DNA from: an uncultured Coprococcus sp.
Lineage (GTDB): Bacteria > Bacillota_A > Clostridia > Lachnospirales > Lachnospiraceae
Assembly (NCBI GenBank): GCA_900767685.1
Contig: CAAGAB010000314.1
Location: 1-6,026 of the forward strand
DNA length: 6,026 nucleotides
Reading direction: 5' to 3'
Notes under the pieces: generated by a model
Database searches by the model: none
Told to the model about the DNA's origin: nothing
Seen by the model: the letters and a program-made list of their open reading frames with translations, nothing else
Position numbers and translations under genes: made by a program
Shown here: in pieces, positions 1,552-5,723 of the stretch
Layout: each line of letters opens with the position of its first letter
Numbering within the stretch: position 1 is the first letter of the stretch

Positions 1552-1580
1552 ATAATACAATATTGTTATACATCAGTCCA
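1552..1580 (-). promoter_or_regulatory. Possible promoter for the small membrane protein gene
   Basis: On the minus strand, TGGACT (1580-1575, 4/6 match to TTGACA) and TATTAT (1557-1552, 5/6 match to TATAAT) are exactly 17 bases apart. The predicted start is near 1545, leaving a leader of about 60 bases. That leader can form a short GC-rich hairpin (1539-1532 with 1512-1505, one mismatch). The promoter would overlap the 3' end of the regulator gene. Read-through from that gene is the alternative. Confidence 0.35.
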
Positions 1581-2252
1581 CCCATGGGCAGGCGACTTAA
1601 GAATAAAATGAGATTTGTGAAAGTCGATCATACCTTCGTCCTTCATCCGACCAAGCTCAGTTGACAGACCGCTGCGGTCCACGGACAGAAAGTCAGCAAG
1701 CTGCTGTCTGGAAAATGGTATGTCAAATTCGTTGCTGCCGTGTCTGTGCATCTCAGATGACAGATAGGAAAGAAGCTTATCCCTTGTTGTTTTCTGGCTC
1801 ATGTGCTTTGATTTTTCGCCGAGTTTCAGATTTTTGCCGGCGAGATCGCACAGGAGATTTCTTATCATCTGATTGTGTTTGCCACACGTCACCGGACAGG
1901 TGGTGAGCATTTTCTGGACATTCAGAAACATTATAGAACTTGCGGCTTCGGCATATACGCTGACGTCAAGTACGGAGCTGGGGGTACAGGCGTATGATTC
2001 GGCAAATGTGTGCCCCGGCAGGATGGCGGACATGACGCTCTGACCGCCCCAGTAATCTTCCTGGATGACTATCGCCTTGCCGGTCAGCAGCAGGCCTATA
2101 TATTCAGTTGTGTTCCCTGCCATGAGAATGCATTCGTTCTTTTTATAATTTTTTATTATTGCTCCCAGACAGTCCAGCACGGAGTCTGTGTCCTCTGCGG
2201 ATATTCCGGAGAAGAGGCTGGATTTCAATAATATATCCATGTATTTATTCAT
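1566..2252 (-). CDS. Crp/Fnr-family transcriptional regulator (HcpR-like candidate)
   Basis: This 228-residue protein has the length and order of the Crp/Fnr family: a cyclic-nucleotide-binding-type beta-roll (about 13-125), a long dimer helix (about 110-145) and a C-terminal winged helix-turn-helix (about 176-217, FSRQQLADFLSVDRSGLSTEL). The phosphate-binding cassette is not conserved: LPGHTFAES (78-86) lacks the Arg-Ser/Thr pair of cAMP-binding proteins, so cAMP is unlikely as ligand. The N-terminal Cys cluster of Fnr is also absent. Scattered Cys at 28, 41, 88, 119, 123 and 135 remain, and C119-x3-C123 lies near the dimer helix. The start is supported by AAGAGG (2265-2260) seven bases upstream of the ATG. 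It is divergent from the ferredoxin-like gene at 2548, whose promoter carries a well-placed dyad, so it probably activates that gene. Heme or NO sensing as in HcpR is inference from gene context only. Confidence 0.88.
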   Translation of the reverse strand: MNKYMDILLKSSLFSGISAEDTDSVLDCLGAIIKNYKKNECILMAGNTTEYIGLLLTGKAIVIQEDYWGGQSVMSAILPGHTFAESYACTPSSVLDVSVYAEAASSIMFLNVQKMLTTCPVTCGKHNQMIRNLLCDLAGKNLKLGEKSKHMSQKTTRDKLLSYLSSEMHRHGSNEFDIPFSRQQLADFLSVDRSGLSTELGRMKDEGMIDFHKSHFILKSPAHGWTDV

Positions 2253-2410: not shown

Positions 2411-2428
2411 ATGTTGAAAATTCAACAT
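2411..2428. promoter_or_regulatory. Operator dyad, probable Crp/Fnr-type activator site
   Basis: ATGTTGAA-AA-TTCAACAT has perfect 8-base inverted arms around a 2-base centre. The centre (between 2419 and 2420) lies at -41.5 if the TATAAT box at 2449-2454 sets +1 at 2461. That is the classic class II position for Crp/Fnr activators. The half-site TGTTGA contains the TTGA core of Fnr-type sites, though the TTGA...TCAA gap is 4 rather than the 6 of the Fnr consensus. The most likely binder is the divergent regulator at 1566-2252. Confidence 0.7.
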
Positions 2429-2448: not shown

Positions 2449-2454
2449 TATAAT
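2449..2454 (+). promoter_or_regulatory. -10 box of activator-dependent promoter for the iron-sulfur gene
   Basis: A perfect TATAAT sits here, but at the 17-base spacing the -35 position reads CATACA, which is far from consensus and abuts the operator dyad. A strong -10, no -35 and an upstream dyad together indicate a promoter needing an activator. The predicted start at about 2461 gives an 87-base leader. A weaker alternative is TTGTGC (2376-2381), 16 bases, TATAAC (2398-2403). Confidence 0.65.
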
Positions 2455-2523: not shown

Positions 2524-2547
2524 GACAAATGATTGGAGGAAACATAT

Positions 2548-3354
2548 ATGATAAGAAGAGTTATACAGATAGACGAGGACAAATGCAACGGATGCGGAGC
2601 ATGTGCAAATGCGTGCCATGAGGGTGCTATAGGCATGGTAAACGGCAAAGCAAAGCTGCTCAGAGACGATTATTGTGATGGACTTGGCGACTGCCTGCCG
2701 TCCTGTCCTACAGGAGCCATAACATTTGTGGAGAGGGAAGCGGCAGCGTATGATGAGGCGGCAGTCATTGCAAACAAAAAGGCGAAGAAACCGGTACACT
2801 CTGGCTGTCCTGGTTCTATGGCGAGAAGTATATTCAGAAGACCGGCAGCAGCTTCGGGCGGTGCGGACGCAGATGAGGCAGATAAAGCAGCGCAGACGGG
2901 TGCATATGGACATGAATCAGGCGGAACAGAACAGAACACATCTGATAAAGCGAACAATCACCAGACAGGTGGCTTTTATCAAGAGCGTCCAAGCCAGCTT
3001 TCACAGTGGCCAGTGCAGATAAAGCTTGCGCCAGTGAACGCACCCTACTTTGATGGCGCCAAGCTTCTTGTAGCGGCGGATTGTACAGCCTATGCATATG
3101 CGTCGTTCCACGAGAAATTCATAAAGGGACATGTGACTCTGGTCGGCTGTCCGAAGCTTGACAGCGTGGATTATTCAGAGAAACTTACGGAGATCATCAG
3201 ACGAAATGATATACAAAGTGTTACAATAGTCCGCATGGAGGTTCCATGTTGTGGAGGCCTTGAGATGGCAGCAAAGAAGGCACTTCAGGACAGCGGCAAG
3301 TTCATTCCATGGCAGGTTGCAACTATATCAATAGACGGAAAAATTTTAGACTAA
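2548..3354 (+). CDS. Ferredoxin-like iron-sulfur protein with C-terminal Cys domain (FrdX-like)
   Basis: The start is ATG 2548, seven bases after GGAGGA (2535-2540); an in-frame TTG at 2533 sits against that ribosome site and is rejected. The 268-residue product opens with a ferredoxin domain. Its first [4Fe-4S] motif is Cys13-x2-Cys16-x2-Cys19-x3-Cys23. The second is unusual, Cys43-x5-Cys49-x3-Cys53-Pro, with only three Cys. After Cys87 (SGCPGS) comes a hydrophilic linker (about 98-150) rich in Gly, Ala, Asp, Gln and Asn. The C-terminal domain (about 151-268) keeps Cys179 (VAADC), Cys201 (LVGCPK) and Cys234-Cys235 (VPCCGG), likely extra metal or redox ligands. No signal peptide or membrane segment is seen, so it should be cytoplasmic. 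Proteins of this type are found beside Crp/Fnr regulators and hybrid cluster protein genes (named frdX in HcpR regulon work, from memory). Electron transfer to an Hcp-type protein is therefore plausible. Confidence 0.88.
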   Translation: MIRRVIQIDEDKCNGCGACANACHEGAIGMVNGKAKLLRDDYCDGLGDCLPSCPTGAITFVEREAAAYDEAAVIANKKAKKPVHSGCPGSMARSIFRRPAAASGGADADEADKAAQTGAYGHESGGTEQNTSDKANNHQTGGFYQERPSQLSQWPVQIKLAPVNAPYFDGAKLLVAADCTAYAYASFHEKFIKGHVTLVGCPKLDSVDYSEKLTEIIRRNDIQSVTIVRMEVPCCGGLEMAAKKALQDSGKFIPWQVATISIDGKILD

Positions 3355-3376
3355 CATTTTTTTCACGGCACCGCAG

Positions 3377-3407
3377 GGGGACGGAGGGGACAGGTACCTC
3401 CGTCCCC
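3377..3407 (+). repeat. GC-rich hairpin repeat, unit A (long form)
   Basis: An 11-bp perfect stem (3377-3387 with 3397-3407) encloses loop GGACAGGTA. Its last 22 bases (3386-3407) are identical to unit B and to the complement of unit D. It lies just after the iron-sulfur gene. No U-run follows, so it is not a standard terminator, though it may stabilise or attenuate the transcript. Confidence 0.9.
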
Positions 3408-3449
3408 AAAACAGCAAAAATTGGTTAAATAAATGTGAAAAGCAAAAAA

Positions 3450-3471
3450 GGGGACAGGTACCTCCGTCCCC
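3450..3471 (+). repeat. GC-rich repeat, unit B
   Basis: This 22-base quasi-palindrome (GGGGACAGG...CCTCCGTCCCC) is identical to the 3' part of unit A, and starts exactly 64 bases after that core. It overlaps a CCCCATGGGG palindrome (3470-3479). It lies 24 bases upstream of the ribosome site of the next gene, so its folding could affect translation. Confidence 0.88.
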
Positions 3472-3507
3472 CCATGGGGCTCTGAAAAGATATGAAAGGT
3501 AAAGATA

Positions 3508-4023
3508 ATGGAAAATAAAAAAAATACAGCAGATGCCGGAAGTGATCTGGCCGGGGCTCTGATAGGGCTTGTGAGGGCCACGGATGGTATGGTTAATATG
3601 ACAGAGAACACGTTTAATATAATACTGGATGGATTACGTATGCTTGGCACCGATGAAAGGTCTGATAGTGATGAGATTCAGTCTATGATAGATAGGGTTC
3701 ATATAGACAAACACACACTGGTGCCTGATTGCAGCGTGTGTGGTTCTCCGTGTGGCAGAACTGAAGATTATGACTGGAAATCGGTTCGTAAGCGTGCTGA
3801 ATCAGGTTCTGAATTGGATGTCTATAAGCTGAAGGTTCTGGATATACTTCAGCGGTTGTCTGATAGCATAAAGATAGATGAATTAAAAGCAGATGATGCG
3901 ATGCGTTTCTTGATATGTCGCGCTGTGTTTTCTTTAGGAGAGCAGTGGTCAGGTATAGAAATGGAGACACTCATCAAGGAGTTAAAAACCATTAATATAT
4001 CAAAAGGGGACGGAGGTGCCTGA
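3508..4023 (+). CDS. Hcp N-terminal-domain-like protein (standalone or truncated hydroxylamine reductase)
   Basis: This 171-residue soluble protein starts at ATG 3508 after GAAAGG (3494-3499). It is mostly helical. Segments match, from memory, the N-terminal helical domain of clostridial hybrid cluster protein / hydroxylamine reductase: DLAGALIGLVRATDG (13-27), IDRVHIDKHTLVPDC (61-75), the Cys motif C75-x2-C78-x3-C82-GRTEDYD, and RFLICRAVFSLGEQW (133-147), which corresponds to the family's 'FFYKALFxxGxDW'. In full Hcp (about 520-550 residues) the chain then runs on into the domains holding the hybrid cluster. Here it ends after KTINIS with KGDGGA-stop, encoded by repeat unit C. Catalytic reduction of hydroxylamine or NO is therefore not expected; the three Cys could still hold part of an iron-sulfur site. 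It lies 153 bases after the FrdX-like gene on the same strand and is probably cotranscribed. An uncharacterised small family sharing this fold is the alternative. Confidence 0.7.
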   Translation: MENKKNTADAGSDLAGALIGLVRATDGMVNMTENTFNIILDGLRMLGTDERSDSDEIQSMIDRVHIDKHTLVPDCSVCGSPCGRTEDYDWKSVRKRAESGSELDVYKLKVLDILQRLSDSIKIDELKADDAMRFLICRAVFSLGEQWSGIEMETLIKELKTINISKGDGGA

Positions 4024-4032
4024 CCCCTTTTG
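4001..4032 (+). terminator. Possible terminator formed by repeat unit C
   Basis: CAAAAGGGG (4001-4009) pairs perfectly with CCCCTTTTG (4024-4032) around a 14-base loop, giving a GC-based hairpin with an A/U-rich base and a four-U run. It overlaps the end of the Hcp-like gene. A second hairpin follows directly (TTTTGCCG 4028-4035 with CGGCAAAA 4050-4057). The short U-run makes strength uncertain. Confidence 0.4.
4006..4027 (-). repeat. GC-rich repeat, unit C (inverted)
   Basis: This is the reverse-complement copy of the 22-base core, with two differences from unit B (T for A at core position 5, C for T at core position 10). It encodes the last residues GDGGA and the TGA stop of the Hcp-like gene. 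Confidence 0.88.
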
Positions 4033-4069
4033 CCGATTTCACGAAAAAACGGCAAAAAATGGCCCCTTG

Positions 4070-4091
4070 GGGGACGGAGGTACCTGTCCCC
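4070..4091 (-). repeat. GC-rich repeat, unit D (inverted)
   Basis: This is a perfect reverse complement of unit B, beginning exactly 64 bases from unit C. It is bordered by CCCCTTGGGG (4063-4072), echoing the CCCCATGGGG beside unit B. A short tandem duplication of CCCCATTCG (4088-4096, 4099-4107) overlaps its outer end. Confidence 0.88.
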
Positions 4092-4159
4092 ATTCGATCC
4101 CCATTCGGGCTCAGGTCTTTCGGTAGTTGGAAAACTCTTATATTATAGGTAGAAAACCA

Positions 4160-5692: not shown

Positions 5693-5723
5693 GGGGACGG
5701 AGGGGTCAGGTACCTCCGTCCCC
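5693..5723 (+). repeat. GC-rich hairpin repeat, unit E (long form)
   Basis: The 31-base sequence differs from unit A at one base (loop GGTCAGGTA instead of GGACAGGTA) and forms the same 11-bp stem (5693-5703 with 5713-5723). It fills most of the 63-base gap between the MATE stop and the ABC ATPase start. It is followed by TGTTTTG, so it could act as a weak terminator or attenuator. Confidence 0.9.

Follow-up and report, generated by a model that had tools for sequence, protein, structure and literature searches.

RESULTS

A free-standing domain I of the hybrid cluster protein

The stretch of DNA analyzed here (the window) comprises 6,026 nucleotides (nt) of contig CAAGAB010000314.1 from an uncultured Coprococcus sp., a gut bacterium (assembly GCA_900767685.1). 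Downstream of a gene for the ferredoxin-like protein FrdX it carries an open reading frame (ORF) that is a genuine gene. The ORF encodes domain I of the hybrid cluster protein (Hcp), an enzyme that detoxifies nitric oxide (NO), as a separate and catalytically empty protein, which we refer to as mini-Hcp. The following features define the gene, and both the anatomy and the family membership of its product are solid.

3494 to 3499, plus strand: ribosome-binding site GAAAGG of mini-hcp, 8 nt 5' of the ATG
3508 to 4023, plus strand: mini-hcp, an intact ATG ORF of 171 codons encoding a standalone Hcp domain I with outer helices, inner helices, and Cys loop
3553 to 3585, plus strand: codons of GALIGLVRATD (residues 16 to 26, first helix), near-invariant across 26 aligned standalone and full-length relatives
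3721 to 3774, plus strand: codons of VPDCSVCGSPCGRTEDYD (residues 72 to 89), the C-x2-C-x3-C loop, with Cys codons at 3730, 3739, and 3751

A preliminary description of this DNA had recognized N-terminal helical segments of Hcp in the product, and our searches agree with it. Both VPDCSVCGSPCGRTEDYD and RAVFSLGEQW (residues 138 to 147) were located, and domain I of four out of five full-length Hcps matched the ORF in tblastn with 31 to 33% identity and E values from 1e-16 to 2e-24; the fifth query, which is loop-less, gave no significant match to the ORF. The three Cys of the loop are invariant in the alignment of 26 sequences. The description was also right that the frame is intact, has a usable ribosome site, and stops before the hybrid-cluster domains. 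The C terminus coincides with the boundary of domain I, domains II and III with the ligands of the hybrid cluster are absent from the ORF, and tblastn with the five full-length Hcp queries found nothing better than E 0.7 for these domains elsewhere in the window. The start differs from that of Hcp as well: the ORF lacks the first 30 or so residues of Hcp, the part that binds the cubane cluster, and the cubane [4Fe-4S] motif FCxQC...C...C that is present in full-length relatives is absent from the ORF. Because the parts bearing the ligands of both clusters are gone, mini-Hcp should be unable to carry out the Hcp-type reduction of NO or hydroxylamine, and from its sequence such activity is expected to be absent.

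In a fold comparison, which the preliminary description had proposed, the predicted structure model has the helical fold of domain I. Another proposed check, a search with profile models, gave a divided answer. The Pfam scan of the ORF returned zero matches up to E 10, including none above the gathering cutoff of Prismane (PF03063), the NCBIfam scan returned a single unrelated model (E 0.12) and no Hcp match, and phmmer against the PDB returned 41 matches (best E 0.057), nearly all of them ribosomal L37. A profile of 89 relatives, which include some pieces of full-length Hcp, recovered the PDB Hcps 8cnr (E 9e-12) and 1e2u (E 2e-6). Among 22 standalone relatives, Pfam Prismane was found in 1 (4e-7) and the NCBIfam hydroxylamine reductase model PRK05290 in 5 (best 2.6e-10).

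Distribution of standalone relatives

Searching with phmmer yielded 172 relatives of mini-Hcp, 120 of which were listed. Among the matches listed, 24 variants (P0001 to P0024) are all 171 amino acids (aa) long with 96 to 100% identity, three more have 80 to 87% identity, and many of similar size have 29 to 58% identity, with pieces of full-length Hcp mixed in lower down. FCxQC is absent from 104 of the 120 proteins listed, a set that was found via shared words (which favors the loop), may contain contig-end fragments, and includes P0084 and P0105, which extend into domain II. Only four of 80 named genome loci (L001, L025, L057, and L076) are standalone, the remaining 76 being full-length Hcps or Hcps broken by contig ends or frame breaks (e.g., L055, L065, and L080). 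Among the 397 genomes of the family to which the genome of L001 belongs, 78 have a match and 21 have a standalone form, judged by reading as an open frame shorter than 265 aa. The plasmid collection gave one weak record, annotated as hydroxylamine reductase, and the phage collection three weak records.

These data speak against a recent truncation in a single strain, which the preliminary description had left as an option: relatives with 29 to 54% identity have similar boundaries, the near relative L001 has the gene order frdX, mini-hcp, MatE gene, and the orthologs in close relatives are not all full-length, since L001 and 20 further genomes of the family hold standalone forms.

For the comparisons below we used a set of 26 loci, namely, the window and 25 loci from 24 genomes. 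Rows excluded from the analysis were L022, a fragment of a full-length Hcp cut by a contig end, and the duplicates L082, L103, and L107. The C..C...C loop is kept in 24 of these 26 standalone ORFs. The GLFTTxTNVNF segment, conserved in Hcp, is not retained in most aligned minis, which would be expected if the contact with domains II and III is gone. L129 (100 to 882) encodes a 260-aa mini-like protein. Judged by eye, its tail is similar to the C terminus of Hcp, and the protein looks like an Hcp that has lost its middle part. As for the origin of mini-Hcp, parsimony requires 5 changes, and 2 are imposed by branches with good support; a single mini clade is not rejected by the approximately unbiased (AU) test (p 0.20), and we therefore do not claim a repeated origin.

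The Cys loop in mini-Hcp and in full-length Hcp

Full-length Hcp was found in 13 of the 24 mini genomes and none in the other 11, genome completeness being unknown (in G023, the sole match is the mini itself). The C..C...C loop occurs in 0 of 14 full-length Hcps read from those 13 genomes; the Hcp of L141/L220 retains a broken version of it. Six further Prismane matches in the same 13 genomes are also loop-less, five of them resembling carbon monoxide dehydrogenases and one (L152) being an unclassified broken frame. For comparison, 82 EQT/QQT-type Hcps of the family sample were collected by a DNA pattern and then read, L200 having been dropped from the original 83 as a chance pattern match of 13 aa. 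An Hcp was scored as looped when C..C...C lay within about residues 45 to 150; the loop-less L168 and L220 keep part of the motif. In the 73 main-type Hcps, a table that excludes nine NGK-type Hcps, the loop occurs in 0 of 7 from mini genomes versus 47 of 66 elsewhere (p 4e-4), and with the nine NGK-type Hcps added, the counts are 0 of 7 versus 47 of 75 (p 0.0018). That the Hcps of the 13 mini genomes are all loop-less suggests that the loop works either in cis, within Hcp, or in trans, as mini-Hcp.

The same counts bear on the idea that mini-Hcp is a trans-acting subunit or maturation partner of the loop-less full-length Hcp of the same cell, a case of split-protein complementation. Its basis is that all 14 Hcps read, and the other Prismane matches, are loop-less. 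However, 11 of the 24 mini genomes show no full-length Hcp, and 7 of the 13 others have a canonical QETA-type Hcp, with the loop in 0 of the 7 read, where a loop may never have existed. We consider this explanation improbable.

Looped Hcps are also associated with FrdX: among main-type Hcps with sufficient upstream sequence, FrdX is adjacent in 22 of 46 loop-bearing versus 4 of 25 loop-less cases (p 0.01), and independent pairs on the tree gave no significance for this association. In the archaeal class I Hcp 8cnr, a C-x2-C-x6-C stretch aligns with the clostridial Cys loop, and the loop may therefore predate clostridia. We found no mention of the clostridial loop in the portions of the Hcp/FrdX literature examined.

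Operon context

The genes and sites upstream of mini-hcp are as follows.

1566 to 2252, minus strand: divergent gene of an HcpR-like CRP/FNR-family regulator (Pfam HTH_Crp_2; PDB matches)
2411 to 2428, plus strand: predicted palindromic operator ATGTTGAAAATTCAACAT, TGTTG-N6-CAACA
2449 to 2454, plus strand: -10 element TATAAT, from sequence
2535 to 2540, plus strand: ribosome-binding site GGAGGA of frdX
2548 to 3354, plus strand: frdX, ferredoxin-like, with two 4Fe-4S motifs and a Cys-containing C-terminal domain

The position after frdX is the usual slot of hcp. The preliminary description had proposed a standalone Cys-motif protein working with the adjacent iron-sulfur protein, and a survey for orthologs of about 170 residues beside FrdX; standalone relatives of similar size do exist, and FrdX lies directly upstream of the mini in 16 of the 26 loci (FrdX end at -111 to 232 nt from the mini), while the cooperation itself is deduced from this context. 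A divergent CRP-family gene lies upstream in 11 of the 26 loci. FrdX is present somewhere in 22 of the 24 mini genomes, and in the family it occurs in 187 of 397 genomes, that is, in 19 of 21 with a mini versus 168 of 376 without (p 5e-5, uncorrected for kinship).

Within 200 nt before FrdX, TGTT-N8-AACA occurs in 11 of 16 mini loci, compared with a mean of 0.11 and a maximum of 1 in shuffled sequences; this count includes L114, in which FrdX follows the mini, and L123 and L124, two contigs of one genome, and it omits L120, in which FrdX is cut by the contig end. The same pattern precedes FrdX in 28 of 72 full-length Hcp loci, some of them duplicates (shuffled mean 0.39, maximum 2). All 11 operator-bearing mini loci have a TATAAT-like element exactly 37 nt from the operator start. 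In the window, the operator would be centered at about -41.5, an activator geometry, if transcription starts 7 nt past the -10 element. The window regulator is better matched by Lmo0753 (7t8o, E 2.9e-14) than by the Porphyromonas gingivalis HcpR (9day, E 2.1e-6), and the operator TGTTG-N6-CAACA matches none of the HcpR consensuses in the part of PMC1274295 available to us, those of C. difficile and C. thermocellum lying outside the comparison.

According to the accessible part of PMC12915319, NO activates frdX-hcp of C. difficile about 200-fold through HcpR, knockdown of frdX or hcp causes NO sensitivity, and the exact function of FrdX is called unclear; a linkage of Hcp and FrdX was proposed in 2005 (PMC1274295, likewise seen in part). 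By analogy, the mini-hcp operon is probably NO responsive, and an HcpR-type factor likely controls it.

In the alignment of FrdX relatives, a variable linker contains GCPGS units, repeated in some, and the C-terminal domain, which carries GCPKLD and VPCCGG, is strongly conserved; relatives carry Pfam PF27217. The structure model of FrdX had a mean predicted local distance difference test score (pLDDT) of 52.6, too low for a structure search. A similar small ORF, cupin-like by eye, comes after FrdX in both L241 and L247 and also occurs near the minis of L121, L125, and L128.

Repeats and the divergent tract

Copies of an interspersed palindromic repeat surround mini-hcp.

3377 to 3407, no strand assigned: repeat GGGGACGGAGGGGACAGGTACCTCCGTCCCC in the frdX/mini-hcp gap, from the repeat search
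3449 to 3471, no strand assigned: second copy in the same gap, from the repeat search
4006 to 4028, no strand assigned: copy, seen in the sequence, that supplies the last codons of mini-hcp and its TGA stop (4021 to 4023)
4070 to 4091, no strand assigned: copy 3' of mini-hcp, from the repeat search
5693 to 5723, no strand assigned: further copy, without mini-like cargo

The repeat, GGGGACGGAGGTACCTGTCCCC and variants, occurs in both orientations, as pairs 64 nt apart that flank mini-hcp on each side; its exact form GGGGACGGAGGTACCTGTCCCC was present in none of the 258 fetched loci. The RNA of the frdX/mini-hcp gap has a strong fold (z -4.9).

Compared with L001, the synonymous divergence (dS) of the window is 0.33 for MatE and 0.52 for FrdX versus 2.03 for mini-hcp, with a nonsynonymous divergence (dN) of 0.48 for the last. 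The divergent tract extends from about 3373 to 4135 and coincides with the repeats on either side. This pattern points to an allele that may have been replaced by recombination or transfer between close relatives, or to unusually fast change. Although repeats flank the tract, we leave the notion that they carry mini-hcp as a mobile cassette as a lead, because the copy at 5693 to 5723 has no such cargo.

Elsewhere in the window, a perfect 17-bp inverted repeat with an 8-nt loop (1149 to 1190) is probably a terminator between convergent genes, and 1237 to 1482 on the minus strand encodes a small protein that has a single hydrophobic segment and ends in a GCGCDCDYGEDD tail; Pfam gave only a chance-level match for it (E 0.15).

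DISCUSSION

We infer that mini-Hcp works with FrdX as a redox or NO partner and has no catalytic activity of its own, a proposal to which we give a little less than an even chance. Under nitrosative stress, the HcpR-type regulator would turn on the frdX-mini-hcp operon, and FrdX, presumed to be the electron-carrying partner of Hcp, would dock on the helical bundle of mini-Hcp as on domain I of Hcp. The three thiolates of the C-x2-C-x3-C loop probably bind a site-open Fe-S cluster or some other metal, and the loop could then take up or relay electrons or react with NO. Where a full-length Hcp is present, mini-Hcp may provide in trans the loop that Hcp lacks; where none is present, mini-Hcp and FrdX might serve alone as a redox relay, an NO buffer, or a sensor.

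Several observations weigh against this proposal. FrdX is not adjacent to the mini in 9 of the 26 loci and lies downstream of it in a tenth (L114). The anticorrelation of mini-Hcp and looped Hcp is phylogenetically unsecured, as only 4 to 6 independent pairs are available, in which those that differ point in the same direction and the sign test is nonsignificant. The Cys motif is incomplete in L129 and L131, and minis sit on long tree branches, indicating fast divergence. Finally, no mini lies beside FrdX in any of 20 sampled loci from genomes without Hcp and mini (L239 to L258, drawn from the listed FrdX places and judged Hcp-less and mini-less by survey reading), 15 of which have a CRP-family gene within the fetched stretch; FrdX therefore functions or persists alone and needs no mini-Hcp.

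The last finding makes slow decay a live explanation and the main rival. The hcp of the frdX operon would have lost its catalytic domains and its N terminus and left a lingering remnant that still folds, on a path from full Hcp through mini to FrdX alone. Long branches and the two incomplete Cys motifs suit decay, as do the variable N and C termini of the minis. On the other hand, the Cys loop and GALIGLxRA are retained at about 30 to 50% identity, the 24 near-identical variants are uniformly 171 aa long, dN/dS is low in the L123/L124 pair, and the operator, -10 spacing, and gene order are all retained. We judge decay to be on the unlikely side.

A further explanation concerns what the loop does. 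Rather than relaying electrons, the loop could be nitrosated by NO, directly or via a metal, and pass the NO group on or signal with it, FrdX then restoring the loop. The NO-type layout of the operon and the invariance of the three Cys are consistent with such chemistry, and protein S-nitrosylation is among the roles of Hcp listed in the accessible part of PMC10502027; a metal site, however, would suit the motif equally, and we regard NO/thiol chemistry as rather unlikely.

Compared with known systems, mini-Hcp shares the helical domain I with class I Hcp (the clostridial hydroxylamine reductase), many clostridial members of which bear a VPDCxxCxxPCGRTxDYD-like loop and many of which follow frdX. 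Unlike them, it has neither the N-terminal cubane Cys motif nor the two hybrid-cluster domains, and most aligned minis have lost GLFTTxTNVNF. The class III Hcp of Methanothermobacter marburgensis also deviates from class I in its N-terminal part (PMC10502027, as far as accessible). Class III loses the outer helices and the linker and keeps both clusters, whereas mini-Hcp has lost both clusters and retains the linker together with the outer and inner helices. The HcpR-frdX-hcp operons of C. difficile, Desulfovibrio, and Clostridium likewise have a CRP/FNR regulator, a shared operator, and frdX followed by the Hcp gene (PMC12915319 and PMC1274295, in the parts seen), but the third gene in the window encodes a domain-I-only protein. 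No description of a standalone Hcp domain I was found in the titles and abstract openings of the open-access literature, a scope that leaves its absence from print unproven.

More broadly, domain I of Hcp may be a detachable module whose loop gut clostridia keep either inside Hcp or free, the free form being an NO-induced partner of FrdX without the hybrid-cluster enzyme. A mini and a looped Hcp occur together in 0 of the 24 mini genomes examined; we nevertheless consider this general view unlikely. According to the accessible part of PMC10210160, it is unknown what donates electrons to class I Hcp. A natural protein that lacks both Hcp clusters and still stands beside frdX in an NO-type operon separates docking from catalysis, and mini-Hcp is thus a small, testable handle on the role of FrdX. 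If the detachable-module reading is true, the loop rather than the cubane cluster would define the contact of Hcp with FrdX.
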